NCBI RefSeq assembly: GCF_900120295.1
Contig: NZ_LT635468.1
Span: 357,242-421,241, forward strand
Reading direction: 5' to 3'
Source: Blautia sp. Marseille-P3201T
Lineage (GTDB): Bacteria > Bacillota > Clostridia > Lachnospirales > Lachnospiraceae
Length of the DNA: 64,000 nt
The position numbers and the translations under genes are program-made. The notes under the pieces were generated by a model that was not told where the DNA came from, searched no databases, and saw only the letters and a program-made list of their open reading frames with translations. Positions 18,074 to 44,574 of the stretch are shown piece after piece (within the stretch, counting starts at the first letter, position 1; the number at the start of each line of letters is the position of its first letter).

Positions 18074-18085
18074 CTGCAATCACCT

Positions 18086-18551: not shown

Positions 18552-18624
18552 CAGCAATATTTCTATTTTTTTATTATCTATTTTATGCATTATCACTATT
18601 TACTGCTTTTCATCAAGTATTCTT

Positions 18625-19899: not shown

Positions 19900-19933
19900 A
19901 TAATATTATCCATATCTCTGTCCTTCTCTGCCA

Positions 19934-21328: not shown

Positions 21329-21342
21329 ATCTTTCCTTCTCC

Positions 21343-25224: not shown

Positions 25225-25256
25225 ATTTTTTCTCCTTTAACTTATATTTTTAGGCG

Positions 25257-26700: not shown

Positions 26701-26756
26701 ATAAAATCATTTATCAATTACCTACTTATATTTTTTTAGAATATTTCTATTCTTTG

Positions 26757-27605: not shown

Positions 27606-27622
27606 TTTTCATTTCCCCCATG

Positions 27623-28425
27623 CTATACATACTCAACCCAATTTTTCTGAACTACCCACTGAATAATTGTAACAATAAGAATCAGCAAGAAGAAAATCCA
27701 AGATACAGCTGATGCATATCCCATATGGAACTGCTTAAATGCCTGATCATACATATGATATACAATTGTTGTTGATGCATTTCCTGGTCCACCTTCTGTC
27801 AACACCTGAACTTCTGCAAATATTTGGAATGACTGAATTATTGAAGTAATAAGTAAGAAGAATGTTGTAGGTGAAACCAATGGTAAAGTAATATAAAAGA
27901 ACTGTTTTAATTTTGTAGCTCCATCTACAGAAGCAGCTTCATAATAGGATGGAGAAATTCCTTGAAGTCCAGCTAAATAAATAACTACACAATATCCGAT
28001 ATTTTTCCAAATCCAAAAAATACCAATTGAAGGAAGTGCCCATTTTATATCTCCAGTCCAACCTGGAACATTCTGTATTCCAAGTGTTCTAAGCAATTCA
28101 TTAATAGGTCCAAAACTTGGTTGAAATAATGCGGAGAATACTAAAGCTGCAGCAGTTATCGTTGTTACATATGGCATAAAAAACGCAGCTCTCAAAGCAC
28201 CTCTTGCAAAAATTTTTTGATTTAATAACGTAGCAATTATAATTGATAAAATCAATAATATTGGAACTGCAACTAACATCAGAAGTATATTATTTTTCAA
28301 GCCAACCTGAAAATATTCATTATGAAAGGCATCTATATAATTTTGTAAGCCACAAAATGTCGAACCGGAAAAGCCTTTAAACATGTTATAATCCATCATA
28401 CTAATTACTAATGAATATATTAATG
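27623..28425 (-). pseudogene. ABC sugar permease (UgpA-type), main 3' piece of a split gene
   Basis: This piece encodes five of six membrane helices and the EAA loop YEAASVDGATKLKQFFYITLP. The missing beginning is found beyond two insertion sequences, at 30997-31077 (first helix) and 32865-32926 (start codon and basic N-terminus). Removing the IS21-type element and one copy of its 8-base duplication TATTAATG gives an in-frame join: ...AYPLI then YSLVISMMDYN. A 258-codon open frame from an internal Met exists but lacks helix 1. Confidence 0.85.
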
Positions 28426-28576: not shown

Positions 28577-30148
28577 ATGCACGACTACAATACTATTCTT
28601 GGAGTCATAGAACTTCGGCTCAGTAAAGTCAGTTATGACTCTGTACAAAAACGTTACCGGATCGGACGGAGCGGGATTGCATTGATCATGAACCGCTACA
28701 AGGATTCAGGCTTATCATTGGATGATCTTCGACAAATGCCAGCCTCAAAGGTGGTTGATCTCATCTATCCAAAAGAAAACCTTCGACATAAGGATATTCC
28801 ACTGCCTGATTTTGAAAAAATACATGAGCAGATGATCCAAATGGGAAAACATGCTGACTTGAGTTTTCTATGGATTGATTATAAAAAAGAGCATCCTAAC
28901 GGTTACCAGCTTGCTCAGTTTTATAAGCTGTATCGTGATTTTATGGTAGATACTTATGGTACTTCAAAAACATCTATGCCTGTGGAACGGATCCCTGGTG
29001 AAAAGATGTATATTGACTGGGTAGGTGACCAGCCGGAACTGCTATTGGATACAACAACTGGCGAACTTCGGAAAGTTCACATTTTTACAACTACACTTGG
29101 TTTTAGCAGCCTTGTTTATGCAGAGATCTTTCCGGATGAAAAACTTCCACATTTTATTACCGGCACAGTACATGCACTGTCTTATTATGGGGCAGTTCCT
29201 AAATATCTTGTCCCGGACAATCTGAGAACAGCTGTTACCAGGCATAGTAAAGATGAACTTGTGCTGCAGTCAGCTTTTTCAGATCTGGAAACTTTTTATG
29301 ATACGATTATTCTGCCGTCACCACCAAGGAAACCGAAAGGTAAACCAACAGTTGAAAATCATGTGCGTTTCTTGGAGACGCATCTGGTAGAAGAATTAAA
29401 GAAAGATACTTATACTTCTCTGGAAGCTCTGAATGCTGCGGTCAAAAAGATCGTAGCAGACATCAACCAGCGTCCTTTCCAGAAAAAATCTGACATTCGG
29501 AAATCCCGCATGAATGGATTCGAAAAGTACGACAAACCGCGTATGAACCAGCTTCCAGGCGAAAGTTATACACTTTGTGATTATAAATACTTTCTTAAAG
29601 TTCCAGATAATTACCATCTTGAGTATGATGCCCACTACTATTCTGTATTGTATACCTATAAAGGGAAGCCTGCAATTCTTAAGGCTACAATGACGGAGAT
29701 ACGGATCTGTGATGAGTATAACCGGCTGATCTGCCGCCATCCAAGATCTTACCGTGATTTTCCTCTTTACATTACAGATGACAGTCATATGCCTCCAGAA
29801 CACCTATATTACAAAGAAGTGAATGCACATGACGGAGCTTATTACAGACGATGGGCATCTGTTTATGGAGAATCTATGGTAACTCTTATTGACAGGATAC
29901 TCCGCAGTTCCAAGCATGAGGAACAGGCATACAACAGCTGTGCCGGTGTACTCCATTCCTGTAAAGATGTTCCTCACAGGCTGGTTCAGGAGGCTGCTGA
30001 GAAATGCGTAGAAGCCAATGCCTGCAAGTATTCTTATTTCAAGAAAGTACTTAGCATGGTTCAGAATAATCATTCCAGCAGCGCTATAAACGGAACCGGA
30101 AAACTTCCTTCCCATACAAACATCCGTGGAAAGGAGGCATACAAATGA
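28577..30148 (+). CDS. istA: IS21 transposase IstA
   Basis: A 523-residue integrase-fold transposase with an N-terminal helix-turn-helix (about 10-45) and a DDE catalytic core: the Asp in MYIDWVGDQP, the second Asp in YLVPDNLRTAV, and the Glu in GKPTVENHVR. The GGAGG site is 9 bases before the ATG. The stop overlaps istB by 4 bases, as usual in IS21. No disruption is seen, so the element may be active. Confidence 0.93.
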   Translation: MHDYNTILGVIELRLSKVSYDSVQKRYRIGRSGIALIMNRYKDSGLSLDDLRQMPASKVVDLIYPKENLRHKDIPLPDFEKIHEQMIQMGKHADLSFLWIDYKKEHPNGYQLAQFYKLYRDFMVDTYGTSKTSMPVERIPGEKMYIDWVGDQPELLLDTTTGELRKVHIFTTTLGFSSLVYAEIFPDEKLPHFITGTVHALSYYGAVPKYLVPDNLRTAVTRHSKDELVLQSAFSDLETFYDTIILPSPPRKPKGKPTVENHVRFLETHLVEELKKDTYTSLEALNAAVKKIVADINQRPFQKKSDIRKSRMNGFEKYDKPRMNQLPGESYTLCDYKYFLKVPDNYHLEYDAHYYSVLYTYKGKPAILKATMTEIRICDEYNRLICRHPRSYRDFPLYITDDSHMPPEHLYYKEVNAHDGAYYRRWASVYGESMVTLIDRILRSSKHEEQAYNSCAGVLHSCKDVPHRLVQEAAEKCVEANACKYSYFKKVLSMVQNNHSSSAINGTGKLPSHTNIRGKEAYK

Positions 30149-30909
30149 GTTCATCCCATGACATTACATTAACACCTCAGGAGCAGGCTCTGATCATGCG
30201 TCTGAAGAGTTTCCGTGTTCCAGAAATGGCACATATCCTGGAAGAACAGTTGAAAGATCCCAATGCAGATCTGAACACTTTTATGGAACGCATGACAGCA
30301 ATGGTTGATGCAGAGTGGCAGGCGCGAGCAGATAAACGTTTTAATCGTCTGATGAAAGAAGCGCATCTGCGATACCCAGCGGCGGATCTTGACGAAACTA
30401 TTTACCGTCCAGAACGTCAGCTTGATACCCAGACAATAGAGCGACTGAGTACCTGCCATTGGATAGAGGAAGGAAAGAATCTCATTGTAACAGGATCTTC
30501 CGCCAGTGGAAAAACTTATCTAATCAATGCTTTTTGTGTAACTGCAATGAAGCAGTCTAAGAGTGTAAAGTATATAAAAGCGAACACTCTTATGAGCGAA
30601 ATGGAACAGACACGTATCAAATCCACAAATCTGGATTACCTGAATAAGCTGACCAAGCTGGATCTTCTTGTAATCGATGATTTTGGCCTTATGGATCTCG
30701 ATCTTGATAAATGCCGGGATCTTTTTGAAGTCCTTGACACCAGGGATGGAAGAAAATCAACTGTAGTCATCTCACAGTTTCCAGTCAGTACATGGTTTGA
30801 TATGTTTGCTGATAATACCTACGCTGATGCGTGCCTTACACGAATCACAGATAAACATCATACATATCGTCTGGAAATGAACGGTATAAATATGCGTGAA
30901 ACAGAATGA
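30145..30909 (+). CDS. istB: IS21 helper ATPase IstB
   Basis: A 254-residue AAA+ ATPase of the DnaC-like IstB family. Walker A is GSSASGKT, Walker B LLVIDDFGLMD, and the sensor region VVISQFP. IstB loads onto target DNA and activates IstA. It is translationally coupled to istA, has normal length, and no defects. Confidence 0.93.
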   Translation: MSSSHDITLTPQEQALIMRLKSFRVPEMAHILEEQLKDPNADLNTFMERMTAMVDAEWQARADKRFNRLMKEAHLRYPAADLDETIYRPERQLDTQTIERLSTCHWIEEGKNLIVTGSSASGKTYLINAFCVTAMKQSKSVKYIKANTLMSEMEQTRIKSTNLDYLNKLTKLDLLVIDDFGLMDLDLDKCRDLFEVLDTRDGRKSTVVISQFPVSTWFDMFADNTYADACLTRITDKHHTYRLEMNGINMRETE

Positions 30910-31077: not shown

Positions 31078-31137
31078 ATGATACCTCTAAAGTAGACAGA
31101 TTAAATATAAAAATCTGTTGCTTTGGAGGTATTTTTC

Positions 31138-31818
31138 ATGCCAAAATCAAAACATTCACCTGAATTTAGAGCTAAAGTATCGCAGGAATATCTGGATGGT
31201 ATGGGTTCTGTTCAGTTCCTTGCTGATAAATACAGTATAGGGTATTCAACACTAAAAGGATGGATTAATGAATATCGAATTCATGGGATATCTGCATTCT
31301 GTCATCCAACGAATAGAAATAGAACTTATTCAAAGGAATTTAAACTCCAATGCGTAGAAGCAGTTCTAAATGGAGAAGGAACCGTTGATGATATCATCGC
31401 TAAATATGCAATATCTAGTCGTTCTGTTTTAAGAAGTTGGATTAAGGTGTATAATGCCAATAGAGAATTCAAGGATTATAATCCAAAACAGGAGGTCTAT
31501 ATGGCAGAGGCACGAAGAAAAACAACACTTGAGGAACGCAAAGAAATCGTTGACTATTGCATCAACCATAATCGTGACTATAAGAATACAGCTGCAAAAT
31601 TCGATGTTTCTTACAGTCAGGTCTATTATTGGGTAAAGAAATATGATGTTGATGGAGAAACCGGATTAACAGACAGACGCGGTCAACGTAAAACAGATGA
31701 TGAAGTAGATGAATTAGAACGTTTAAGACGTGAAAACTTACGACTAAAGCGTCAGTTGGAAGAAAAGGATATGGTTGTTGAATTGTTAAAAAAAGTGAAA
31801 GAATTCGAAAGGATGTGA
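31138..31818 (+). CDS. IS3-family OrfA (helix-turn-helix protein)
   Basis: A 226-residue protein with three helix-turn-helix units in series (about 10-45, 60-100, 130-165), each with a YSxxTLKGWI/SVLRSWI/QVYYWVKKY type recognition helix, and a C-terminal leucine zipper (LERLRRENLRLKRQLEEKDM). I chose ATG 31138 because of GGAGG 8 bases upstream. The stop (ATGTGA) overlaps the GTG start of orfB, so OrfB is made by coupling or by frameshifting to a fusion. Confidence 0.88.
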   Translation: MPKSKHSPEFRAKVSQEYLDGMGSVQFLADKYSIGYSTLKGWINEYRIHGISAFCHPTNRNRTYSKEFKLQCVEAVLNGEGTVDDIIAKYAISSRSVLRSWIKVYNANREFKDYNPKQEVYMAEARRKTTLEERKEIVDYCINHNRDYKNTAAKFDVSYSQVYYWVKKYDVDGETGLTDRRGQRKTDDEVDELERLRRENLRLKRQLEEKDMVVELLKKVKEFERM

Positions 31819-32780
31819 GACTGGGCAAGGTGCGTCATGAATCAAAATATCTTGCGATAAAATATTTTCATACAGAGAAAAACTGGAGTATTGAATGGAT
31901 GTGTAAACATTTGGAGATCGCAAGAGCTGCTTATTATAAATGGCTACACCGTGAAACACCTGAAGGTGAAATGGAAAATATCAAACTTGCAGAGCTCATT
32001 AAGGAGTATGATGAACGCTTTAACCATATCTTAGGATATCGGAGAATGACTTCCTGGATCAATCATTTTAATCAAACAAAGTACAGCAAAAATAGAGTTC
32101 ACAGGATTATGAAAAAACTGGAAATTCATTCCGTTATACGAAAAAAGAAGAAAAAATATAGGAATACCAATGCAGATGAAACAGCAGAAAATATACTACA
32201 AAGAGATTTTTACGCAACTGCCCCCAATCAAAAATGGGCTACTGATGTGACCGAATTTAAAGTGCCGGGGGAAAAAAAGAAGCTGTATTTAAGTGCCATT
32301 ATAGATCTGTATGACAGATTTCCTGTCTCATATATTGTCAGTGCCAGAAATGATAATAAATTAGTATTTAAAACCTTTGATAAGGCAATTGCGTTGAATC
32401 CCTGTGCAAAACCGATTTTTCATTCAGATCGCGGATTCCAGTATACCAGTCAAATGTTTAAAAAGAAACTTGAAAAACAAGAAATGAGGCAATCCATGTC
32501 ACGGGTTGGACATTGTATTGATAATGGACCAACAGAAGGTTTCTGGGGAATTATCAAAGCGGAAATGTATCAGATGTATGAAATAACAGATGAATCCTCA
32601 TTAAGATTTGCGATAAAGGATTATATAAGATTTTATAGTGAAGAACGTCCACAGGATAGGTATTGTTGTAAAACACCCTTAGAAGTACGTCAAGAGGCGC
32701 TGAAATCAGACATACCAGTAGAATATCCTATTCCAGAAAACAAACGAATTGAAAAATATAAAAAGAAATGGTGTGCATAA
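31815..32780 (+). CDS. IS3-family transposase OrfB
   Basis: A 321-residue DDE transposase: HTH_21-like N-terminal part (about 40-110), then an rve integrase core with Asp in KWATDVTEFK, Asp in HSDRGFQYTS and Glu in GPTEGFWGIIKAEMY. The start is GTG at 31815, overlapping the end of orfA. It is complete and without visible defects. Confidence 0.9.
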   Translation: MRLGKVRHESKYLAIKYFHTEKNWSIEWMCKHLEIARAAYYKWLHRETPEGEMENIKLAELIKEYDERFNHILGYRRMTSWINHFNQTKYSKNRVHRIMKKLEIHSVIRKKKKKYRNTNADETAENILQRDFYATAPNQKWATDVTEFKVPGEKKKLYLSAIIDLYDRFPVSYIVSARNDNKLVFKTFDKAIALNPCAKPIFHSDRGFQYTSQMFKKKLEKQEMRQSMSRVGHCIDNGPTEGFWGIIKAEMYQMYEITDESSLRFAIKDYIRFYSEERPQDRYCCKTPLEVRQEALKSDIPVEYPIPENKRIEKYKKKWCA

Positions 32781-33016: not shown

Positions 33017-33676
33017 TTATATAGTCACTTTTTGTATATTTTTCACAAACTCTTTGGCTGTTTTGGTAATTATATCGTAATCACCACTGTAAATAGCTTT
33101 ACGATCAACTAAACTTCCACCTACTCCAACACCACAAACTCCTATCTTCATAAAATCTCCCACATTTGAAGCAGAAACTCCTCCAACCGCAAGAAATGGA
33201 ATATGATTTAATGGTGCAGATAAAGATTTAATATAGTTAATACCCAAATCCCCTGCTGGAAACAACTTTACAAAATCTGCCCCGCAATTATACGCATCTG
33301 CAGCTTCAGAAGGTGTTAATGCACCTGGGATAGAAACAATACCCAATTCGTTAGCTTTTTTAATTACATCAAAATTTACATTAGGTGAAATAAAATACTT
33401 TGCTCCAGCTTTATATGCTGCTTCACATTGCTCAATTGTCATAACAGTACCAGCTCCAGCACATATTTTATCTTCCATGTTTTCTGCAACCAGTTGAATT
33501 AATTCAGCATTCTTTGTAACACCCTTTGGATCCCTTTGATCAAAAGCAATTTCCATTAAATGAATTCCACCTTTATAAAGAGCTTCTGCTGTTGGCAAAA
33601 TATGTTCTGCATCAACCCCTCTTACAATTGCAATAATCTTTTCTTTTTGAATTAACTCAATTACTTCTTTTTTCAT
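33017..33676 (-). CDS. 2-keto-3-deoxy-6-phosphogalactonate/gluconate-type aldolase, intact copy
   Basis: A 219-residue class I aldolase of the KDPG/KHG family. The Schiff-base Lys137 lies in DFVKLFPAGD, with IVRGVD near residue 20 and the phosphate-binding AVGGVS near residue 160. AAGGAG precedes the ATG. It cleaves keto-deoxy-phosphosugar acids to pyruvate and D-glyceraldehyde 3-phosphate, which would be the last step of 3,6-anhydro-D-galactose breakdown. It is 32 bases downstream of the cycloisomerase in the same transcript. KDPG and KDPGal cannot be told apart by sequence alone; the pathway context favours KDPGal. Confidence 0.88.
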   Translation of the reverse strand: MKKEVIELIQKEKIIAIVRGVDAEHILPTAEALYKGGIHLMEIAFDQRDPKGVTKNAELIQLVAENMEDKICAGAGTVMTIEQCEAAYKAGAKYFISPNVNFDVIKKANELGIVSIPGALTPSEAADAYNCGADFVKLFPAGDLGINYIKSLSAPLNHIPFLAVGGVSASNVGDFMKIGVCGVGVGGSLVDRKAIYSGDYDIITKTAKEFVKNIQKVTI

Positions 33677-33708
33677 ACCAATACACTCCTTCTTTATCTT
33701 TTCCGAAT

Positions 33709-34857
33709 TTATTTGACAACCTTATATTTTTCTAAAATATCGCGATCTACTTCAATTCCAAGACCTGGGGCATCTGGAACATAAATATATCCGTTCTCAT
33801 ATCGAATCCCATCATTAATCAATTCCTTACGGAAAGGATGACTTGATCTATCAAATTCAAGGAATAATTCTGAAGGACAAAAACTCATTGGAGTATATGG
33901 TAAAGAAGATATAAACTGTAATGAAGCGGCAAGTGACACGCCTGATCCCCATGCATGTGGCATAATAGCAGTATTATATGCCTGTGCAATTGCAGCCATT
34001 TTTTTACATTCCGTTATACCACCTGCGGATGAAACATCTGGCTGATAAATATCTAAAGCTCCATTTTTTAACCAATTATTAATTTCTATTTTTCCGAAAA
34101 TTTCTTCTCCTGCTGCCATATAGGATGCAGTTAAATTTCTTAATGCCTTGTATCCTTCCATATCCTCTGGAGTTAATATTTCTTCATAAAAGTAAATGTT
34201 TTCTGGAACAAGTTCTAAAATTATTCTTCTTGCAACTGCTTGTGAATAGCATGCATTAAAATCAACCATCAAGCGAACATCAGGTCCGACTGCTTTACGT
34301 ATAGACCGAATATATTCAATATCCTTTTCTGGTGTAAAACCAACCTTTAGCTTCATTGCTGTAAAGCCTTCTTCTTTAAATTTAAGCGCATCTTCTACAG
34401 ATGTTTCTGGATATTTTTTCCCATCTAAACGATAAAAGCCAGTTGCATATGCAGCTAATTTTTCTCTGAATCGACCACCAATCAATCTGCTAATCGGTTG
34501 TTTTAGCTGTTTTCCATTTAAATCCCATAGAGCAATATCTATTCCACTTAAAGCATTCATTGCAATTCCCTGTTGTCCAAAAGGTCTTGCTTTATTGTAT
34601 AGTGTTTCCCATATTACCTCTACATCTAAACTATCTTTTCCTATTACCTCCTCTTTATAACAATTTTCTACAAAGCTAGAAGCTAAAAATGGACTTTGCT
34701 GTCCATGGCACATGCATTCACCAAAACCACTTGTTCCATCTTCTCCAATAACCTCTACAATTACAGAGCTTCTACGATATACATACCCCTGCGAAAAGTA
34801 AAATGGCTGTTCTAATGGTGCGCTAATGACATGTGTAATCAAATTTTTAATAATCAT
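33709..34857 (-). CDS. Enolase-superfamily (MR/MLE) enzyme, candidate 3,6-anhydro-D-galactonate cycloisomerase
   Basis: A 382-residue mandelate racemase/muconate lactonizing enzyme family member. The catalytic Lys pair is K169-x-K171 (MKLKVG), the metal ligands are Asp199 (MVDFN), Glu225 (YEE) and Glu251 (GEE), and a possible catalytic or substrate His301 lies in MPHAWGSG. Known pathways for 3,6-anhydrogalactose use an enzyme of this superfamily to convert anhydrogalactonate to 2-keto-3-deoxygalactonate. Galactonate or glucarate dehydratase activity is the main alternative, but the presence of an aldehyde dehydrogenase and GH127 in the same island favours the cycloisomerase. It heads its own transcript behind site D and is the only complete copy in the window. 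Confidence 0.82.
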   Translation of the reverse strand: MIIKNLITHVISAPLEQPFYFSQGYVYRRSSVIVEVIGEDGTSGFGECMCHGQQSPFLASSFVENCYKEEVIGKDSLDVEVIWETLYNKARPFGQQGIAMNALSGIDIALWDLNGKQLKQPISRLIGGRFREKLAAYATGFYRLDGKKYPETSVEDALKFKEEGFTAMKLKVGFTPEKDIEYIRSIRKAVGPDVRLMVDFNACYSQAVARRIILELVPENIYFYEEILTPEDMEGYKALRNLTASYMAAGEEIFGKIEINNWLKNGALDIYQPDVSSAGGITECKKMAAIAQAYNTAIMPHAWGSGVSLAASLQFISSLPYTPMSFCPSELFLEFDRSSHPFRKELINDGIRYENGYIYVPDAPGLGIEVDRDILEKYKVVK

Positions 34858-34936
34858 TTACACTACCTCTTTTCAATTAATTTTTTCTTTATAACATTTA
34901 TTCTTGATACATGTTATGAATATTTTTTATTTATAT

Positions 34937-34966
34937 GATATCATACATGTTACATGTTATCAATTG
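34937..34966 (-). promoter_or_regulatory. Candidate island operator, site D
   Basis: The plus strand reads GATATCATACATGTTACATG followed by TTATCAATTG, with a perfect 11-base inverted repeat CATGTTACATG at its centre and outer TGATA/TATCA arms. It lies about 80 bases upstream of the cycloisomerase start. This is the most symmetrical site and the best guide to the operator. Confidence 0.6.
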
Positions 34967-35016
34967 TCTTTTTTTATATATTAACGCACTCTTTTTTGTA
35001 ACAAATGCTATAACAT

Positions 35017-35053
35017 AAAAAAGATATGCTACATAAACTGCAACATATCTTTT
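35017..35053 (-). terminator. Terminator after GH127 copy 2
   Basis: AAAAGATATG and CATATCTTTT arms with a 15-base loop, followed by T residues on the minus strand. It ends the kinase-sulfatase-sulfatase-GH127 transcript. Confidence 0.75.
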
Positions 35054-35071
35054 CATAATTATATATTTTCA

Positions 35072-36937
35072 TTAAACCATAGGAAACCAAATACTCATAT
35101 CTGATTCTTCACGATTAGCCCACGCATAGTATGGAATCATTTTTATTGTTGTATCACTCTCTGCAAATTGATATTCGTAATATAACTGCTCTTGCTGTTT
35201 ACGATATTTTCCTGGAACTTCTAACAATACCACTCCATCAAGTAATTTTTCATCATATTTTTCTTTTACTTCGCCTGATGGATTTATATACAATTCATCC
35301 AACTTATATTCGTTGTCAATTCCCTCTGCGCAAAAAATTACAGGTCCCCTTTTTACTGCGAGCATTCCTCTATCTTGCTCGACATTTGGATTTGCTTGCA
35401 TAAACACAGCTTTCATTGGCAATTTTACGATAATACTATCACCTGTAGAAACAATGGTTTCATAATATCCCGGCTCAACACTTTCGCCATTTACACTTGG
35501 ATTTTTACACCATGCAGGAATACGAATCTTTACTTTCTGTTGCTGTGCCTTACAAATATCTAAAACTATTGTATCTTCCCAAGGATATTTTGTTGTCATT
35601 ACAATTTCAGTATCTTCTGTAACATAATTACATTTGGTAAATAAATTCACATAAATTGTATCTTCATTTTGTCCATATACCCATCTTCCGATTCCCGCCA
35701 TCGTTCGGAATAATTGTGGTGGGCAACACCAACAATCAAATGTATGCCATCTTCTAGAAGACTTATGCTTATATTGTATATTCAATTCTTTTTCATCATT
35801 AACTACAAATGGTATTTGTTTCTCTTTTCTATATGACAATGGATTCGAATAAAAATATCTTGTTAAGGATAGGTTAGATCCCGAAATTCCGGCATTATAC
35901 ATAATCTGTTCTGCCCAATCACCATACTGTGTATCTTCTGTTGTTTCAAGCATTCGCATTGCCCACATAGCTGCACCTATATTAGCACAGGATTCATTAT
36001 ATGCAATTTTATTTGGAAGTTCATATTCTGTACCATGAGCCTCATATGTACGGTCTCCATTTTCAGAAAAACCAATAAATGTTGGGCAAACCCCACCCGT
36101 AATATAAATTCGTTTTGATATTAAATCATTCCAAATTCGCTTATTTGCTTCTAATAAAGCTTTTTCACCTGTTTCAGAATAAACATCAATTGATCCGCTA
36201 TACAAATAGGTAGATGTAACTGCATGACCAACTGCCTTTGTTTCTTCTCTAAGTAATGTTCTTGTCTGGTTTTGATCTGTACCGTTCCCACTACTGCCTC
36301 TCATATTTACAAATATTTCAGCCAATTCAATATCCTTTGGATTTTCTGTCACACGATACAAATCATATAATCCCATTATCTGACTTGGATTAAATCCAAA
36401 ATTTGCAAGCTCCTTTGGATATGTATGGAATACGCCATATAGATAATCCGAAAATTTTCTCGCTGTTTTTATTAAATAATCCTGTCCCGTAATATCATAA
36501 TGAGCAGCAGCAAGTGTAAAGAAATGACCCGCATTATATAACTCATGATGCTCCATATCAGTCCATCGACCAATATCTGTAAGTGTTACCTGTGTATTTA
36601 AATATCCATCCTTCTCCTGATTTAAAGGAATTAATTTTGTATATTTTTCAACAATTTCCAGTACCTTAGGATCATTTGTATTCTGATATACATATAAACA
36701 GCCTTCTAAGAACTTATAGCAATCTCCATCCGACCAAAATGCTCCCTTCCACTGTCCTTCTCTTACGCCTGCCCCGATTTCAAAATTCAAAAGTCGCGCA
36801 GAATTTTCTTCATCTAATAAAGCCTCTAACATACTGTTTATTATTTCCATGTAGTTTTCTGTTCGATGACCCCAAAAACCATTTTGCAATCTACTATTAC
36901 GAAGGCTAGCAAAATCAAATTTTCTATAGTTTCTCAT
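35072..36937 (-). CDS. GH127 glycosidase, copy 2 (candidate 3,6-anhydro-D-galactosidase)
   Basis: A 621-residue GH127 enzyme collinear with the copy at 15547-17412 but clearly diverged, roughly two thirds identical by eye. It retains Glu315 and Cys317 (YNESCA) and Cys404-Cys405 (CWCCPPQ), the family's zinc and catalytic site. The ATG at 36937 has AAGGAG 7 bases upstream; a longer frame to 36976 does not. There is no signal peptide. It is the last gene of the transcript with kinase and sulfatases, and by context should remove terminal 3,6-anhydro-D-galactose from desulfated oligosaccharides. Arabinofuranosidase activity is the alternative. Confidence 0.82.
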   Translation of the reverse strand: MRNYRKFDFASLRNSRLQNGFWGHRTENYMEIINSMLEALLDEENSARLLNFEIGAGVREGQWKGAFWSDGDCYKFLEGCLYVYQNTNDPKVLEIVEKYTKLIPLNQEKDGYLNTQVTLTDIGRWTDMEHHELYNAGHFFTLAAAHYDITGQDYLIKTARKFSDYLYGVFHTYPKELANFGFNPSQIMGLYDLYRVTENPKDIELAEIFVNMRGSSGNGTDQNQTRTLLREETKAVGHAVTSTYLYSGSIDVYSETGEKALLEANKRIWNDLISKRIYITGGVCPTFIGFSENGDRTYEAHGTEYELPNKIAYNESCANIGAAMWAMRMLETTEDTQYGDWAEQIMYNAGISGSNLSLTRYFYSNPLSYRKEKQIPFVVNDEKELNIQYKHKSSRRWHTFDCWCCPPQLFRTMAGIGRWVYGQNEDTIYVNLFTKCNYVTEDTEIVMTTKYPWEDTIVLDICKAQQQKVKIRIPAWCKNPSVNGESVEPGYYETIVSTGDSIIVKLPMKAVFMQANPNVEQDRGMLAVKRGPVIFCAEGIDNEYKLDELYINPSGEVKEKYDEKLLDGVVLLEVPGKYRKQQEQLYYEYQFAESDTTIKMIPYYAWANREESDMSIWFPMV

Positions 36938-36972
36938 TTCATTCTCCTTATATTCCTTATGTGCTATTTTAT

Positions 36973-38445
36973 TCATTTACTATAATCTAATTTTAATTTT
37001 GGATATTCTGGTTTTCCAACCGTTCCTGCTTCTGGAAGCTTTTCTAGTATTTCTAGTAAATAATCATCTGTTTCTTCCATATGTTTAAATACTTTTTTTC
37101 TTAATTCCTCTTTAATCCCCTGATAATAAAAATCATCAGAAAGATTTTTCATTTCATATGGATCGTTTTGCAAATCGTATAATTCATCAATATCCTGTGG
37201 AATAAAACTATATTTATAACGTCCTTTTTTTATCATTCGAATTTCAAAACTATGACCATTATATTTATAATAGTTGCTGTAGATTTCCTGTTCTTCCGAT
37301 TCACTTATTTGTTTTTTACATATTTTATCTAAGCTTGTTCCATTCTCACAGGAAGTTCCTGCGAAATCAAAAAAAGTCTGTGCAATATCAAGTGTATTAC
37401 AATAAGTATCACATTTAGTTCCATTCTCGCAGTTATTCAAATCTTTGCAAAATAATAAAGGCGTACGAATAACATCTTCGTAGCAATACGCATGCTTATC
37501 AAATTTTCCATGATTTCCCAACATTTCTCCATGATCTGATGTAAAAATCACTCTTGTTGGTCTTCCCCCTGAACATTCCTTTGCTTTTTCTAATATCTGT
37601 CCTATAAAATAGTCCATCATCGTAATAGAACCATAATATGCACGAATTGTTTTTTTCCACTCTTTTTCATCAAAATATTCTGTATCAATACTTGGCCACC
37701 ATTTTCTCGTCTGATACCATGGTTTATTTAAGAAATTATCATTTATACTTTCTGGCAACGGAATATCTACATCGTCATACATACTATAAAATGGCTCTGG
37801 ATTAGAATTTGGAAAATGTGGACCTACTAATGAGGCTGTCAGACACCACGGCTCATTTTTATTTTTTTCAAGATAATCTAAAGCTTTTTGTATAACTTTA
37901 TATTCATATCTTTCTTCAATAGAATCTAATTTTTTATAAAATGGTAAATATTCATCATCTGAAACTTTTGATTTTCTTAAATCCTCATCTGCTTTTAATT
38001 GTCCTCTCTCTGTAACTGGTGGCTGTGGAATTCTTGTTTCATGTTTTACTCTGTCACTTTCAATCCTGCAAATATCAAACTCAACTCCCTTGTCTGTTGA
38101 CTGCCAATCTAACCCAAGATGCCACTTTCCAAAATATCCAACTCTTCTCCCAGTATCCTTCATTGCATCTAACCAAGTAAATGCTGAATTTGGAAGATAT
38201 TCCTGTCTTGAACCTCCCACATCACAATTATCTATAACACCACTTTGATGTGGATACAATCCCGTCATAATACTTCCTCTTGCTGGTGTACATAATGGAC
38301 AAACCGTATAGCTATTTGTAAAATCAACGCTATACTGTGCAAGGTTGTCCAAATTAGGAGTTTTCACTATCTTATTTCCATGGAATCCAACACAATCAGC
38401 TCTCCACTGATCTGTAAATATAAATAAAATATTGTCTTTTTGCAT
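36973..38445 (-). CDS. Type I sulfatase (S1 family), full-length counterpart of the truncated copy
   Basis: A 490-residue sulfatase with formylglycine signature C52-T-P-A-R56, metal ligands in FTDQW (Asp12, Gln13) and VIFTSDHGEMLGNHG, and no signal peptide. It lies 35 bases before GH127 and 21 bases after the 464-residue sulfatase. Its counterpart at 18625-19899 is truncated, so this is the only working member of its type. It probably removes sulfate from galactose or anhydrogalactose in imported oligosaccharides before GH127 and GH2 act. Confidence 0.9.
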   Translation of the reverse strand: MQKDNILFIFTDQWRADCVGFHGNKIVKTPNLDNLAQYSVDFTNSYTVCPLCTPARGSIMTGLYPHQSGVIDNCDVGGSRQEYLPNSAFTWLDAMKDTGRRVGYFGKWHLGLDWQSTDKGVEFDICRIESDRVKHETRIPQPPVTERGQLKADEDLRKSKVSDDEYLPFYKKLDSIEERYEYKVIQKALDYLEKNKNEPWCLTASLVGPHFPNSNPEPFYSMYDDVDIPLPESINDNFLNKPWYQTRKWWPSIDTEYFDEKEWKKTIRAYYGSITMMDYFIGQILEKAKECSGGRPTRVIFTSDHGEMLGNHGKFDKHAYCYEDVIRTPLLFCKDLNNCENGTKCDTYCNTLDIAQTFFDFAGTSCENGTSLDKICKKQISESEEQEIYSNYYKYNGHSFEIRMIKKGRYKYSFIPQDIDELYDLQNDPYEMKNLSDDFYYQGIKEELRKKVFKHMEETDDYLLEILEKLPEAGTVGKPEYPKLKLDYSK

Positions 38446-38466
38446 AATAATTCCATCCTTCCTCTT

Positions 38467-39858
38467 TTATATTTCTGGAGTTCCAATATTCCATGGGGTA
38501 TCATATCCTGGTGTTGCTTCATAAATACTATCTACCAAATATCTGTAATGTTGTAATTTAATACTTTCATACTCTTTATCATTCCACAAATTATTTCGTT
38601 CTAAAGGATCCTTATTCAAATCATACATTTCACCATATGGCCGATTCACATAATGAATTGTCTTTATACCATCTGAAATAATTCCACGAATTTCCCCTGC
38701 TTCCATATAAATATATGGTCTCTTTTTAATTTCTTTTGTTTTATCCCAATAACCTACATACGAATAATTTGACATATGTGAATCTAATTTTGTCTCAGAA
38801 ATCTCCATACAGGTTGCAGCAACATCGATATTTAAAACATCATCCTTTATATGAACTCCTTCAAAATCTTTTATAGGTGGTTTCACAAATAAAGGTACCC
38901 TCATTAATGATTCTTCTAGACATTGTAGCTTTTCAACAAGCCCATAATCTCCCATAAAATCGCCATGATCCGATGTATAAATAATTACCGTATCATCATA
39001 AGCATTATACTTTTTCAAAACTTCTAAAACTTCTCCAATTTTTTCATCTATGAGTGTAATATTGGCATAATAAGACCGCTTTGTTTTTAAAAATTGTTCT
39101 TTTGTATAATCTTTTAAATAAATCTGAGAATACATTCCCATATTTCTAAATTGAGGGCCCTTTTGTTCTAAATCTTCATATGTACTCTCCGAAAATTCCA
39201 TATCATTTAGTTCATACATATCTGCATATTTTGTACCTTCTAAATCATAAGGATGATGTGGTCCCGGAAAAGATAACGTAAAAAACCATGGTTGCTTATT
39301 TTCTGTATCTGACAAGCGATTTTCCATCCACTCCTTACCTTTGTCTCCAATAAAATTATCAATATGATATTTTATATCTCCCTTCCAAGTTCCCCCGCTA
39401 ATTAGATTTTTTTCATATAAACTATCTGGTTCAATTCCATTTTCTTTTAAATAATCAAGATAAACGCCTAACTGTTCTTTAGGTGCCGTTGGAAAATGAC
39501 CATCCACTATCATTTCATAGTCATAGCCTTTATCTATTGTTGATTCTGCAAAATGTTGTTTACCTACAACAGCTGTATAATATCCATTTTCTTTTAATCG
39601 TTTCATAAATGTTTTTTCTGTGTCAGGTAAATAACTAATATATGCAGGTACCTGACACTGACTAGGAAACTTCCCCGTCATTATACCTGCTCTAGATGGT
39701 ACACATGATGGATTTGAACATCTTCCATTCTCAAAAAATACACTGTTTTCTATTAATTTATCCAAATTTGGTGTAATTACTTTTGGATTTACACACCCCA
39801 TAGTGTCATATCGTTGCTGGTCTGTCATTATAAAAATAATATTAGGTCTTTTTTTCAT
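38467..39858 (-). CDS. Type I sulfatase (S1 family), second of the right block
   Basis: A 464-residue sulfatase very like the one at 19934-21328, with C52-V-P-S-R56, MTDQQ and IIYTSDHGDFMGDYG. I chose ATG 39858 because AAGGAAAG lies upstream and the protein then matches its paralogue residue for residue in length; an in-frame Met seven codons earlier is less likely. There is no signal peptide. The retention of both paralogues suggests different sulfate positions or linkages, or simple redundancy. Confidence 0.9.
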   Translation of the reverse strand: MKKRPNIIFIMTDQQRYDTMGCVNPKVITPNLDKLIENSVFFENGRCSNPSCVPSRAGIMTGKFPSQCQVPAYISYLPDTEKTFMKRLKENGYYTAVVGKQHFAESTIDKGYDYEMIVDGHFPTAPKEQLGVYLDYLKENGIEPDSLYEKNLISGGTWKGDIKYHIDNFIGDKGKEWMENRLSDTENKQPWFFTLSFPGPHHPYDLEGTKYADMYELNDMEFSESTYEDLEQKGPQFRNMGMYSQIYLKDYTKEQFLKTKRSYYANITLIDEKIGEVLEVLKKYNAYDDTVIIYTSDHGDFMGDYGLVEKLQCLEESLMRVPLFVKPPIKDFEGVHIKDDVLNIDVAATCMEISETKLDSHMSNYSYVGYWDKTKEIKKRPYIYMEAGEIRGIISDGIKTIHYVNRPYGEMYDLNKDPLERNNLWNDKEYESIKLQHYRYLVDSIYEATPGYDTPWNIGTPEI

Positions 39859-39906
39859 ATTCTCTTTCCTTTCCGACAAATAGATATATGCAACTAATCA
39901 TCATTT

Positions 39907-40854
39907 CTATCTAAAAACTTCCTTTTTCTCCTTAAGACAATTTTCCATCTTTTCAATATCCGGTTGATTTTCAACATCACCTACTACTTCTGTGACCATT
40001 GCTCCTGCAATTCCTCCCATTTTGCCACAGATTTCTAAATTACAATTTGATAATATTCCACTTAGAAAACCCGCATTAAATGCATCACCTGCTCCAATGC
40101 TTTCTACGCATTTACAAGGATATGGTGGAATAAAATAATATTCTTTTTTGTGATATATATAGGCACCATTTCCACCATCTTTTATTGCAACAATAACATT
40201 GGGATTATTTTGTTGTAATATAGAAATCATATCCTCTTTTCTAGAAACACCTAAAAGACACTGTCCTTCCTCTACCCCCATTTCAACAATATCCGATTCA
40301 AATAATATCTGTTTAAAAAAAGGCGCATAATCCTGGTTCTTCCAAAGTTTTTTTCGAATATTTGGATCAAAGCTAACTAGAACATTCTTTTTTCGAGCAA
40401 ATTCTATTGACTTAATAATGGTATCTTTACAACTTTGTGAAAGAACTGGTGTAATTCCTGTTATATGGAATATTTTACAATTTTCAAAATAAGATTCTTC
40501 TATATCATTTGGCTTCATATGACTTGCTGCAGACCCTTTTCGATAATAAAATACCTTCGTGGCATCTGTTTCCATTTGTTTAACCATAAGCCCTGTAGGA
40601 TGTTCTTCATCCCAAATAACCTTAGAACAGTCTACTCCCTCTGATTGAATTTCTCGCAAAATCAACTCTCCAAACTCATCTTTCCCAAGTCTACTAATCC
40701 ATCCCGCAGTATGTCCTAATTTTCTTACTCCCATAGCAACATTACTTTCTGCTCCAGCAATACGAATATTTAAATTACGCTTATAGCGTAACATTCCCAC
40801 ATCTTCTGGTACCATTGCTACCATTGTTTCACCTATTGTAATTAATTCTGGCAT
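39907..40854 (-). CDS. PfkB-family sugar-acid kinase, candidate 2-keto-3-deoxygalactonate kinase
   Basis: A 315-residue ribokinase-fold kinase. The N-terminal PELITIGETM and GGIAGA-type segments are family-typical, and the ATP/catalytic motif SIGAGDAFNAGF places the catalytic base at Asp257. The ATG at 40854 has GAAGG upstream; a TTG five codons earlier is the alternative. It resembles 2-keto-3-deoxygluconate kinases. Here it would phosphorylate 2-keto-3-deoxygalactonate for the aldolase. It begins a four-gene transcript (kinase, two sulfatases, GH127) behind site E. No copy exists in the left block. Confidence 0.85.
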   Translation of the reverse strand: MPELITIGETMVAMVPEDVGMLRYKRNLNIRIAGAESNVAMGVRKLGHTAGWISRLGKDEFGELILREIQSEGVDCSKVIWDEEHPTGLMVKQMETDATKVFYYRKGSAASHMKPNDIEESYFENCKIFHITGITPVLSQSCKDTIIKSIEFARKKNVLVSFDPNIRKKLWKNQDYAPFFKQILFESDIVEMGVEEGQCLLGVSRKEDMISILQQNNPNVIVAIKDGGNGAYIYHKKEYYFIPPYPCKCVESIGAGDAFNAGFLSGILSNCNLEICGKMGGIAGAMVTEVVGDVENQPDIEKMENCLKEKKEVFR

Positions 40855-40891
40855 TTTTACCTTCACCAACCTTCTATATTATTGCATATAT

Positions 40892-40920
40892 GATATCATA
40901 CATGTTATTTGTGTGCCAAT
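40892..40920 (-). promoter_or_regulatory. Candidate island operator, site E
   Basis: GATATCATACATGTTATTTG followed by TGTGCCAAT is identical to site D over its first 16 bases. It lies about 40 bases upstream of the kinase start. Confidence 0.55.
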
Positions 40921-41004
40921 ATCTAAAATTCATATATTTTATAATCTATTTTTAGTAATTATTTCTTCCATTCCTTTTCATGAAAACATTAATACTTAAA
41001 CTAT

Positions 41005-41042
41005 AAAAGGAGATTATTGCACCATATTCATAATCTCCTTTT
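41005..41042 (-). terminator. Terminator after aldehyde dehydrogenase copy 2
   Basis: A perfect 13-base-pair stem, AAAAGGAGATTAT with ATAATCTCCTTTT, and a 12-base loop. It ends the aldehyde dehydrogenase transcript. Confidence 0.85.
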
Positions 41043-41064
41043 CAAAATATCATTTTTATTTACT

Positions 41065-42483
41065 TTACAACTTAATAGAAATTCTCTGCACTGTATAATA
41101 CTCTTCTAAGCCAATTCTAGAGCAATCTTTTCCAATTCCACTTTGTTTACAACCACCATGTGGAAGCTGATATGCATAAAATGGTTCATTAACGCATACA
41201 CTACCAGCATCAATTTCCTGCGATAACTTCATTGCCATCGATAAATCTTTTGTATATACATAAGCAGCAAGACCATACTCCGTATCATTTGCCATAGCCA
41301 CAATATCTGCCTCATCATTAAATGAATATATTGGCATAATTGGACCAAAAATTTCTTCCTGATAAACACGCATTGTTTTGTCTACATTTACTAGAACTGT
41401 TGGCTCATAGAAGAAGCCTTCTCTTTCTGCTCTCTTGCCACCTCTATATATTTTAGCACCTTTACTTACAGCATCTTCTACTAAGCTTTCCATATTATGT
41501 AATGCTTTTTCATTTACAAGTGGACCAACAAGATGTTTTCCTTCATCATTTCCGGAACCAAGTTTAATCTCATCCATAAAACTGTTCACACCAGCCATAA
41601 ACTCATCTAAAACACTTTCGTGAACAAAAATTCTATTTGGTGCAACACATACCTGTCCTGTATTTCCAAACTTTCCATCTGCAGTACATACACCTGCATT
41701 AAAAGCATCTGCATCTTTCATTACAATAACAGGAGCATTACCTCCTAATTCCAAAGAATAATTCTTAATAGACGTTGAACTTTGTTCTACTAATTTTTTT
41801 CCAGTTCCAGTTGATCCTATCATTGTTACCATGCTAGGAATCGTACTCTCATTCATAACTTTTGAGACAACGGCACCGCTACCTACTACAATATTCACAA
41901 CTCCATCTGGAATTCCAGCTTTTTTAACTGCTTCACCGACAAGCATTGTTGCCAACGGCGTATCAGAAGAAGGTTTTATCACACATGTACAACCACTTGC
42001 TAAGATTGGTCCCAATTTGTATCCAACATTCAATAATGGGAAATTCCAAGCTAAATGGCATACTACAACTCCCAAAGGTTTTCTAATCAGCATATTTATA
42101 TGTTGATTATCATAATCAGGTACTATCTCACCATTTAATCTTTTAACCTCTTCGTTATAATACTTTAAGCAATCTGGTAACATATCAAAATCATACGACG
42201 CAACATCTGCAGCTTTACCGGTTTCACTAATTAAACAAGATACTATTTTTTCTTTTTCTTCATCTAAAACATTAACTAACTTTTGAATATAAACTTCTCT
42301 TTCAGCAATGCTTTTTTTAGACCAGCTTTCAAACGCCTTTTGAGCACTCTCTAAAGCTTTTTGTGTTTGTTCTTCTGTTGCAGTTGGAATAACCTCAAGA
42401 ACTTTTCCGGTAGTAGGATTAATTACCTCTAATGGCTTTCCATCTCCCTCTACAAGTTCTCCAGCAATTAATTGTTTAAACAT
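41065..42483 (-). CDS. Aldehyde dehydrogenase, copy 2 (candidate 3,6-anhydro-D-galactose dehydrogenase)
   Basis: A 472-residue NAD(P)-dependent aldehyde dehydrogenase with Cys279 in NTGQVCVAPNR, Glu in LELGGNAP and EEIFGP near the C-terminus. The ATG at 42483 has GGAGG 7 bases upstream, so the longer open frame to 42531 is not used. It is a diverged paralogue of 21343-22773. It is transcribed alone behind site F, with its own terminator. It would make anhydrogalactonate for the cycloisomerase; other hydroxy-aldehydes are possible substrates. Confidence 0.85.
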   Translation of the reverse strand: MFKQLIAGELVEGDGKPLEVINPTTGKVLEVIPTATEEQTQKALESAQKAFESWSKKSIAEREVYIQKLVNVLDEEKEKIVSCLISETGKAADVASYDFDMLPDCLKYYNEEVKRLNGEIVPDYDNQHINMLIRKPLGVVVCHLAWNFPLLNVGYKLGPILASGCTCVIKPSSDTPLATMLVGEAVKKAGIPDGVVNIVVGSGAVVSKVMNESTIPSMVTMIGSTGTGKKLVEQSSTSIKNYSLELGGNAPVIVMKDADAFNAGVCTADGKFGNTGQVCVAPNRIFVHESVLDEFMAGVNSFMDEIKLGSGNDEGKHLVGPLVNEKALHNMESLVEDAVSKGAKIYRGGKRAEREGFFYEPTVLVNVDKTMRVYQEEIFGPIMPIYSFNDEADIVAMANDTEYGLAAYVYTKDLSMAMKLSQEIDAGSVCVNEPFYAYQLPHGGCKQSGIGKDCSRIGLEEYYTVQRISIKL

Positions 42484-42523
42484 ATTTTTCCTCCCTATTA
42501 AAACCATCTTTTTGTGCTTGTAT

Positions 42524-42551
42524 GATATCATTCGTGTTATATGTTTGCAAT
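42524..42551 (-). promoter_or_regulatory. Candidate island operator, site F
   Basis: GATATCATTCGTGTTATATG followed by TTTGCAAT combines the left half of site D with the right half of site A. It lies about 45 bases upstream of the aldehyde dehydrogenase start. Confidence 0.55.
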
Positions 42552-42966: not shown

Positions 42967-44574
42967 AGTGTCTGCTGATTAAGCAGCTATCTGTAACTTC
43001 CAACTCTTACATCTGTTCCGGTCATGCCAGAATCGGAACAGATGCAAAAGAGCACAAAGTATTCGCCTCTGAATCCTGAACAGATTCGTCACGAATACAG
43101 ATAATGCGATAGATGTCAACTGCGTTTCTTCCAGTTTTGTGGTAATGCAGCTCATACCATAACAGCGTTTGCTCAGGCTGAAGGTGCGCTCCACTTCGAT
43201 TCTATCGGTATTATCCTGATACTCTTGTTTTTTATCAACTTTTGCTGTGGCGCTTGGTCTGCCCAGCTTTGGACCTGATAACCGGATCCCATGCTCTTTG
43301 CAATAACTCCTGTTTTCCCTGGTCCGGTATATCTGATCTGCCAGGACACGTTCTGGATAATAACCGGTACGCTCTTTGAAGCGTTCTATTGCTTCAATCA
43401 GGCAGGTGCTCTCGTTGTATGCCTCGAAAGATATTTTTTCGAGGCGCCCATAACCTTCGCTGTCAAGACTGAGATCAAATTTTGCGCCAAATTCAACAGG
43501 TGCTTTGACCTTCCCTCTGACAATCGGCCGAAGCCATGGCTGCGAAATGCTTACAATGCGATGCTCTACAGAATGGATTCTGTTATCATACATATACTGT
43601 TGCTGTTCATACAGCCTGATGATGGTAAGATATAGGCCGATATCCTTACCTGTCATGGCGTATCCATCACTCATGAACTGTTCCAGATAGCCAAGATCTC
43701 TTTTCACGTAGCCTAGCTGTCTGCGGAGTGCGCTGCGGATTTTCTTTGCCGTGTGCTTTCTGCTCTTGGCAAATGCAAGATACTCTTTTCTGGCACGTTT
43801 GCGGTATCTTCTTGGCAACTTAAGACCATAACATTTACAAAAACAGTAAATCATGTTTTCCAGCTTTTCTCTTGCTTCGTTCAAAAGCGAGATGTCCTGC
43901 GGATAACGTATGTTTGCAGGTGCGCAGGTTGCATCAAGTGTCAGAGTCCCTTTGTTTGTATCTTCTTTTGCAGTACCATCATCACCGGATTTTCCTACGG
44001 ATGGAGGAGTATGGTCATCTTTGTCATCCTCCTTGTGAGCAAGAAGATACTCATTTACTTCCATCAGCATATCTGCTGAAATGCGTTTACGGAAAAGAAC
44101 CAGTGTACTTGCATCAAACGGAGCTTCTTCCCGAAAACCGGGAAGCCCGATAAAGTATTGCAGATACGGATTCTCAGCGATCTGTTCCACAAGCTCACGG
44201 TCGGAAAATTGGAACTTGGTCTGGATGATCAGGGCTCCTAATGCCATGCGAAGAGGCTTGGCAACATTACCCGTATCACTTGGAAACAGCTTGGCATATT
44301 TTACTTCGAATTCATCCCATGGGATTCGGTCAGCCAGTCTGACCCAGCGGTTATCCGGATTCATGTGGAGTCCCATAGGTTGGTTGAAATCGAGGAATGA
44401 ATGTTGTAACTTGTCGATCGGTTTGTACATTGTTTTAGCCCCTTTATACTTAAAATCTGTAAGAAAACTGCAAGAAAAACGATTTGTTTTTGTCAAAATC
44501 CTTGCAATCATTATACCAGAAAATGTGGCAAAAGTCAGTAAAATCAAGTGTTTTCAGTTTGCTCAGCAGACACT
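42967..44574 (-). mobile_element. IS1182-type insertion sequence
   Basis: It is bounded by 12-base perfect inverted repeats AGTGTCTGCTGA (42967-42978) and TCAGCAGACACT (44563-44574) and encodes one transposase. No clear target duplication was found. The right repeat supplies the last codons of the small membrane protein gene. It separates the catabolic island from the plasmid-type replicon. Confidence 0.88.
42979..44430 (-). CDS. IS1182-family transposase
   Basis: A 483-residue DDE transposase with an N-terminal DUF772 domain (about 45-125; LRMALGALIIQTKFQFSDRE), a Lys/Arg-rich middle and a C-terminal catalytic part (ADQIYRTRENRSYC, then DRIEVERTFSLSKR with the catalytic Glu). I chose ATG 44430, behind AAAGGGG, rather than the longer frame to 44547. 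It appears intact. Confidence 0.88.
   Translation of the reverse strand: MYKPIDKLQHSFLDFNQPMGLHMNPDNRWVRLADRIPWDEFEVKYAKLFPSDTGNVAKPLRMALGALIIQTKFQFSDRELVEQIAENPYLQYFIGLPGFREEAPFDASTLVLFRKRISADMLMEVNEYLLAHKEDDKDDHTPPSVGKSGDDGTAKEDTNKGTLTLDATCAPANIRYPQDISLLNEAREKLENMIYCFCKCYGLKLPRRYRKRARKEYLAFAKSRKHTAKKIRSALRRQLGYVKRDLGYLEQFMSDGYAMTGKDIGLYLTIIRLYEQQQYMYDNRIHSVEHRIVSISQPWLRPIVRGKVKAPVEFGAKFDLSLDSEGYGRLEKISFEAYNESTCLIEAIERFKERTGYYPERVLADQIYRTRENRSYCKEHGIRLSGPKLGRPSATAKVDKKQEYQDNTDRIEVERTFSLSKRCYGMSCITTKLEETQLTSIALSVFVTNLFRIQRRILCALLHLFRFWHDRNRCKSWKLQIAA

Follow-up and report, generated by a model that had tools for sequence, protein, structure and literature searches.

A predicted 3,6-anhydro-D-galactose pathway of new enzyme make-up in a carrageenan-type locus of Blautia sp. 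Marseille-P3201T

The use of 3,6-anhydro-D-galactose (D-AnG) from carrageenan has been described for Zobellia galactanivorans, where, according to PMC5698469, dauABCD/dagA cover four reaction classes and come with a GH127 anhydrogalactosidase and adjacent sulfatases, and for Pseudoalteromonas PS47 (PMC6923384) and P. carrageenovora 9T (PMC6262041), whose loci also hold GH167, an exo-2S-type sulfatase, DauA and a GntR regulator. Further papers report carrageenan loci of Bacteroides and ruminants (PMC13168452) and a system of Colwellia echini (PMC6952198), and a fish-gut survey assigned some carrageenan sulfatases to Clostridia (PMC11333855); carrageenan genes are also mentioned, in section 11 of PMC5698469, for Epulopiscium sp., a gut symbiont of the Clostridia (Firmicutes), a likeness that we draw by description only, the loci compared here including none from Epulopiscium. 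Here, we analyze a 64,000-nucleotide stretch of the Blautia sp. Marseille-P3201T genome (hereafter, the window; contig NZ_LT635468.1, positions 357,242 to 421,241), in which the same four reaction classes are encoded, along with GH127 and sulfatases, in a block on the right (33017–42531), with a diverged paralogous block to its left (15547–22773).

We hold with good confidence that the right block is a D-AnG pathway inside a carrageenan-utilization locus of a Gram-positive bacterium, built from parts that are not orthologues of the marine enzymes; judged from the sequence, the four-enzyme route very probably breaks down the D-AnG of carrageenan. The genes that carry this reading are:

41065–42531, minus strand: aldehyde dehydrogenase (ALDH), predicted DauA role (PF00171, E = 1.1e-145); start possibly at 42483
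39907–40869, minus strand: PfkB kinase (PF00294, E = 2.1e-50)
38467–39879, minus strand: S1-type sulfatase with motif CVPSR (PF00884), without a signal-peptide-like stretch
36973–38445, minus strand: S1-type sulfatase with motif CTPAR, predicted from its PDB matches to be an anhydrogalactose-2-sulfate 2-sulfatase, without a signal-peptide-like stretch
35072–36976, minus strand: GH127, predicted alpha-1,3-(3,6-anhydro)-D-galactosidase in the DagA role (PF07944/PF20736/PF20737), without a signal-peptide-like stretch
33709–34857, minus strand: enolase-superfamily enzyme, predicted cycloisomerase (PF02746 and PF13378, E = 6.2e-57 for PF13378)
33017–33676, minus strand: KDPG/KDPGal-type aldolase, predicted DauD role (PF01081, E = 1.1e-41)
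2336–7201, minus strand: GH167 beta-carrageenase-like protein, the matching part at about residues 766–1522 (6ptm, 503 bits; 9whd, 467 bits)

Signal peptides were assessed here by an N-terminal hydropathy count, not by a dedicated program. The seven right-block genes, listed in their order of transcription from 42531 to 33017, are each open from start to stop with zero internal stops, and the four pathway genes are interleaved with the two sulfatases and the GH127 gene; the intergenic distances, in the same order, are 195, 27, 21, -4, 214 and 32 bases, a spacing from which the block may form one or two transcripts. All four enzyme genes are thus present and intact on the minus strand where the original prediction had placed them, with Pfam matches far beyond chance. 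That prediction ended the block at 42483, an internal methionine that is a plausible true ALDH start, but the open reading frame extends to 42531. The genome is 2.94 Mb in 10 contigs and 99.7% complete, and contamination is unlikely because the window sits at 357–421 kb of a 440-kb contig and one of its flanks has serS- and parA/B-like genes (recognized by eye) and a tRNA-Arg.

Compared with Zobellia, the cycloisomerase and GH127 of the window fall outside the marine clades, the kinase belongs to the PfkB family, the sulfatases and GH127 appear by hydropathy to have no signal peptides, and an ABC importer stands in place of SusCD. P. carrageenovora has two FadR/GntR regulators beside dauABCD, where the window has a GntR/FCD regulator at 22943–23629; it differs from the window in having no GH127 (PMC6262041), a DauB of yet another lineage, a DgoK kinase and TonB receptors.

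The choice of carrageenan as the source of the sugar comes from the neighboring genes, a carrageenan enzyme being the best solved relative of three window proteins: the ALDH, the 36973–38445 sulfatase and the GH167-like protein. The ALDH best matches 6pnu/6pop (403.7 bits; next, 362.6). According to PMC6923384, 6PNU, 6POP and 6PTM are entries of the PS47 carrageenan paper, and we take 6PNU to be DauA because it is labelled an aldehyde dehydrogenase within that set. For the sulfatase, the best PDB matches are the exo-2S iota-carrageenan sulfatases 6pt4/6ptk/6pt6 (192–197 bits; next kind, 145), and this nearest solved relative, together with the formylglycine motif, suggests the exo-2S type (S1_NC of PS47); the protein is 31% identical to a P. 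carrageenovora sulfatase (L159:6377–7900). Its neighbor at 38467–39879 best matches choline-sulfatases, giving no substrate indication. The GH167-like protein starts with an N-terminal hydrophobic signal and ends in SPSTG and a membrane stretch, presumably a wall anchor. It is 42% identical to its P. carrageenovora counterpart, and its E1026 and E1211 align with E295/E472, the catalytic residues of BovGH167 according to PMC6923384. Residues 1–760 comprise repeated-looking stretches with no Pfam match, possibly binding or stalk domains. Searching 72,556 plasmid records for GH167 yielded three matches, from P. carrageenovora, Flammeovirga and Persicobacter; P. carrageenovora also holds dauABCD, and the Flammeovirga and Persicobacter plasmids carry dauABCD-like clusters with GH127 and sulfatases.

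The agar route uses the same enzyme classes, but it is extremely improbable that the block serves L-anhydrogalactose from agar. The window enolase-family enzyme is 27% identical to the agar-type cycloisomerase 5xd7 and lies far from the clade formed by 5xd7 and the proteins of loci L106–L108. An agar-type query (the L106 protein, 640 bits to 5xd7) matched only the window gene in the entire genome, at 31% identity, the oxidoreductases of the L-route not having been searched for; apart from remnants in the left block, neither this query nor the window protein found another enolase-family gene in the genome. GH167 and the exo-2S-type sulfatase, moreover, are carrageenan enzymes. The earlier assignment of four steps in D-route order, with carrageenan favored over agar, is accordingly backed by GH167, the exo-2S-type sulfatase, the DauA-like ALDH and the lack of an agar-type cycloisomerase in the genome.

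In their trees, the ALDH, GH127 and cycloisomerase each branch off deeply and separately, though on the D side of the family, and the kinase comes from another family. The two window ALDHs (one from each block) form their own branch; the 34-row group around it (100/100) takes in DauA as well as the ALDHs from carrageenan loci, and is separate from the ALDHs beside agar-type cycloisomerases. Likewise, the two window GH127s are a deep branch in a 19-row group (100/100) with marine DagA and 5mqo, outside the DagA clade proper (13 rows, 100/99); among the GH127s from related genomes, 9 of 11 group with 4qjy and 2 of 11 with 5mqo. In each of these two trees, one row is a partial duplicate of the window protein itself.

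Substrate specificity at the cycloisomerase step is the weakest part of the pathway case. In phmmer searches, the window enzyme scored 287 bits with AtGCI, 275 with Zobellia DauB (5olc) and 119 with 5xd7, the first two being 39% and 38% identical to it. The catalytic base, acid and metal ligands (K171, H301, D199, E225, E251), a set shared with AtGCI (4ggb/4hpn), are conserved, and so is W303 (Trp298 in AtGCI numbering), the residue roles being those of section 7 of PMC5698469. The lid motif, QPFYFSQ, corresponds to TPFYFSQ in DauB, whereas AtGCI has TPFESAS; AtGCI-clade locus L017, moreover, lies beside kdgD, that is, it leads to another product. In an 88-row tree, the enzyme joins Photobacterium proteins (100/100), then two proteins from Burkholderiales metagenome-assembled genomes (100/96), distant from both the agar-type (5xd7, L106–L108) and the galactonate dehydratase clades; this tree omitted 28 of 112 locus rows (own copies, duplicates, near-identical relatives, L004, L105, L109 and L110). 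The superfamily tree, which had been proposed as a check, places the enzyme far from the L-type clade and also outside the known DauB clade.

Several observations weigh against the D-AnG reading. Besides lying outside the 33-row DauB clade (100/100) and the AtGCI group in the 88-row tree, the cycloisomerase has Pro92 at the position of Asp87 (AtGCI numbering), which AtGCI and DauB have in common; proline occurs there in 2 of 41 other aligned rows (36 chosen loci, 3 PDB entries and 2 P. carrageenovora proteins), both from Photobacterium. The Photobacterium relatives, in the stretch examined, are without ALDH, GH127 or sulfatases and may act on another acid. An ALDH in the 34-row group of the window ALDH comes from a same-family genome (L134) with no carrageenan genes nearby, as judged by eye, and a genome search for GH16, which did not cover GH82 or GH150, found none. 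The lower half of the pathway adds to these points. Four Bacillaceae loci (L077, L078, L081, L094) hold an enolase-family gene, an ALDH (31%), an aldolase and a PfkB kinase without DgoK, and L077, the only one of the four to which the model was applied, is a galactonate dehydratase by NF010624. The four enzyme classes alone are thus unspecific for a D-AnG route. The window PfkB is 39–41% identical to the Bacillaceae proteins versus 24–27% to those of five DauB-clade loci with a PfkB kinase, and the aldolase 41–44% versus 28–32%; GH127 was not seen in these five loci in the stretch examined.

A position outside the 5olc clade is not enough to deny the function, because P. carrageenovora DauB also falls outside and the strain grows on D-AnG, for which its authors credit dauABCD (PMC6262041). 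In a 38-row tree, where the DauB group had 87/98 support, that protein (L159:37502–38665, lid GYSQQ) and those of L041 and L058 made up a third group (100/100). Forcing the window and Photobacterium proteins together with DauB was rejected in this tree by an approximately unbiased (AU) test at p = 0.023, a modest value that is also optimistic, since the 38 rows were chosen and the grouping under test was defined with the first tree already known. Relatives came from a contig scan with two short peptide patterns, taken among the matches listed, and from a plasmid search (best 40 of 827 records); the scan misses relatives without the two peptides, such as P. carrageenovora-type DauB. Among the matches listed, only two Photobacterium proteins were more than 45% identical to the window cycloisomerase. 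Their cluster (L014:11195–17755; also L018) comprises a regulator, a TRAP transporter (by eye), a PFYFSQ-type cycloisomerase, a DgoK kinase (PF05035) and an aldolase. Because the cycloisomerase gene of L014 directly precedes those for DgoK and the aldolase, this branch likely yields 2-keto-3-deoxygalactonate, and the Photobacterium cluster perhaps serves catabolism of an imported anhydro-sugar acid. The cycloisomerase of L021, in the next-nearest branch, has an epimerase-family dehydrogenase and galactarate/altronate dehydratase domains beside it, a setting that resembles uronate or galactarate use.

These relationships bring up a different reading, in which the enolase-family enzyme converts galactonate or a sugar-lactone and the four-gene route, similar to that of De Ley and Doudoroff, is fed by the polymer's galactose half and not by D-AnG. 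It would account for the nearest relatives lying in a transporter/DgoK/aldolase cluster, for the next neighbors being L020 and L021, for the aspartate-to-proline change and for the same ALDH, PfkB and aldolase set in Bacillaceae galactonate loci; further, no NCBIfam model fits the window enzyme better than galactonate dehydratase (NF010624). We nevertheless consider it unlikely. The score with that model is 212 bits, below the cut-off of 311 and comparable with Photobacterium L014 (229) and DauB-clade L015 (189), whereas L077, L080 and L086 reach 589–606 and form a different clade, and membership of the window enzyme in the galactonate dehydratase family was rejected on these grounds; the clustering with sugar-acid dehydratases named beforehand as contrary evidence was not seen. 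The window enzyme retains the DauB-type lid motif absent from AtGCI, and the adjacent GH127 and exo-2S-type sulfatase would leave D-AnG to be used, with no other enolase-family gene found. The Bacillaceae clusters, which resemble the block in having ALDH, PfkB and aldolase genes beside an enolase-family gene, have, in L077, an enzyme above the galactonate dehydratase cut-off and, in the stretch examined, no GH127, GH167 or sulfatase. Since the four classes also occur in these clusters, the case for the D-AnG pathway rests on the carrageenan-type neighbors: gene context supports the pathway reading, and orthology with the characterized D-enzymes is not supported.

The kinase departs from the described systems. 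Its best NCBIfam model is the KDG/KDGal kinase NF040938 (207.9 bits, under the cut-off of 400), and comparison with P. carrageenovora DauC gave nothing meaningful; the P. carrageenovora and Flammeovirga kinases belong to PF05035 (DgoK), whereas the window kinase is a PfkB protein and not a DgoK-type DauC. The aldolase scores above the cut-off of the eda model TIGR01182 (166.5 versus 156.05 bits). Among 97 tabulated loci, own copies included, 12 combine cycloisomerase, ALDH, GH127, aldolase and DgoK, and 9 have a cycloisomerase-family gene with ALDH, aldolase and PfkB in the absence of DgoK. The DauB-clade loci with PfkB and without DgoK (L026, L027, L030, L038 and L045) are all from Bacteroidota and have a DauA-like ALDH, with the PfkB gene close to that of the aldolase; one of them, in Maribacter polysiphoniae (L038:10001–14294), is an uninterrupted series of dauB, dauA, aldolase and PfkB genes, the kinase (PF00294) best matching an aldolase/kinase fusion model and then the KDG/KDGal-kinase model, both under cut-off. 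Because the window PfkB and aldolase are nearer to Bacillaceae proteins, the pathway seems to combine an upper half of D-AnG type with a KDG module of Gram-positive character as its lower half.

The origin of the locus was approached through genome samples (relatives, family and genus) that overlap. GH167 was found in none of 139 other genomes of the relatives sample and none of 396 others of the family sample. When the cycloisomerase was searched for at a threshold of E 1e-40, 19 genomes of the same genus gave no match, and the matches in 8 further relatives were only 30–35% identical. The absence of GH167 from the related genomes searched, along with the insertion elements that interrupt the region, might be expected if a carrageenan locus had recently been transferred straight from marine Bacteroidota or Pseudoalteromonas, with plain orthologues as its enzymes. 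Such a transfer is very unlikely, given identities to carrageenan-type loci of 36–44% for ALDH, 36–39% for the cycloisomerase, 28–40% for the aldolase and 35–39% for GH127, the deep separate branches, and the AU rejection of the grouping with DauB. The G+C content of the right block (0.32–0.37) resembles that of the neighboring stretch at 50–58 kb (0.33–0.34), and megablast of window positions 25200–49000 against plasmids gave no match. A simple recent marine transfer was accordingly set aside, being unsupported by the trees and accompanied by no G+C anomaly; the locus was likely acquired, but, as far as these comparisons indicate, not recently from any genome compared.

The remainder of the locus contains the following features:

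7228–10260, minus strand: GH2 beta-galactosidase-like protein (PF02836, PF02929), without a signal-peptide-like stretch
10257–11726, minus strand: intact sulfatase of a third type with motif CSPAR (PF00884), without a signal-peptide-like stretch
11834–15524, minus strand: ABC importer (by eye), with a lipoprotein-like binding protein at 11834–13396 (N-terminal hydropathy) and permeases at 13640–14593 and 14571–15524
15547–17424, minus strand: intact second GH127 that shares about 65% identity with the first
17440–18073, minus strand: second aldolase copy, divided between two frames
18092–18482, minus strand: remnant of a second cycloisomerase with an in-frame stop, only residues 1–103 and 351–380 matched
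18625–19962, minus strand: second copy of the 36973 sulfatase, minus the first 21 residues
19934–21328, minus strand: second copy of the 38467 sulfatase (79%), intact
21343–22773, minus strand: second ALDH copy (58%), intact
22943–23629, minus strand: GntR/FCD-family regulator (PF00392, PF07729)

The left block (15547–22773) is a diverged paralogue of the right one, with 67–79% DNA identity in aligned stretches and a differing gene order, that has no kinase and in which the cycloisomerase, the aldolase and one sulfatase are broken. The original prediction gave the pathway genes of the right block correctly and omitted this second block. Insertion elements occupy 25357–26655, 28577–30909 (with IstB of IS21), 31123–32780 and 42979–44547. 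Beside the IS21 element, an ABC permease at 27623–28399 (PF00528) has seemingly lost its first transmembrane part, and the second importer to which this region belongs (23869–28399) may be dead. The deleted cycloisomerase, split aldolase, truncated sulfatase and missing kinase of the left block, the interrupting elements and the shortened permease would all suit a decaying relic in which the pathway no longer runs. We think this quite unlikely, because the seven right-block genes, GH167, GH2, the third sulfatase and one ABC importer are all open.

Genome-wide, there are 13 sulfatase matches, and a Cys-type sulfatase-maturing enzyme is encoded at C5:26075–27127 (363.9 bits versus a cut-off of 349.45). 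A second sulfatase cluster (C5:86001–106000, L155) was considered as a carrageenase site and rejected, as a GH88 gene and ABC systems occur there instead; it looks like a cluster for glycosaminoglycan use.

Returning to the D-AnG pathway, the proposed route would begin with surface-anchored GH167 and the ABC importer delivering carrageenan oligosaccharides to the cell. Cytoplasmic sulfatases, one of them of the exo-2S anhydrogalactose type, would then remove sulfate, and GH127 and GH2 would cleave neocarrabiose to D-AnG and D-galactose; since the sulfatases, GH127 and GH2 have no N-terminal signal-like stretch, we assign both of these steps to the cytoplasm, following import. The ALDH would convert D-AnG to 3,6-anhydro-D-galactonate, the enolase-family enzyme would turn this into 2-keto-3-deoxy-D-galactonate, the PfkB kinase would phosphorylate the product and the aldolase step would yield pyruvate and glyceraldehyde-3-phosphate. 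One difficulty counts against this scheme, along with those above. Characterized GH167 enzymes, according to PMC6923384, are exo-acting on desulfated ends, whereas the sulfatases of the window appear to have no signals, which leaves extracellular attack on the sulfated polymer without an explanation. The ways out would be import of sulfated oligosaccharides that other organisms have released, use of natural beta-motifs, or a window GH167 unlike the characterized ones.

The pathway type is already known, and it is the enzyme make-up, as read from the sequence, that is new. A D-AnG pathway made up of these enzyme branches was not described in the openly accessible literature that we consulted, subscription papers being outside its scope, which is no proof of absence. 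A more specific proposal, which we regard as evenly poised, is that a Gram-positive lineage would have a complete D-AnG pathway with a separately recruited cycloisomerase and a PfkB kinase, and with cytoplasmic desulfation and anhydrogalactosidase activity behind a wall-anchored GH167. If so, three or more cycloisomerase lineages would serve this one step, the window enzyme adding to the DauB clade and the P. carrageenovora type, and loci without a DgoK-type dauC could be completed by PfkB kinases. The occurrence of PfkB where DgoK is expected, in the window and in the five DauB-clade loci, bears on the loci lacking dauC in section 11 of PMC5698469, which leaves open why they do so; a PfkB kinase may be the simpler answer that fits them. 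Should the cycloisomerase act as predicted, one reaction would be served by several branches of one superclade, that is, by repeated recruitment. Carrageenan is commonly added to food, and most of the loci described for its use come from marine bacteria or Bacteroides; a Gram-positive version that keeps its sulfatases in the cytoplasm would eat the same polymer in a different way.

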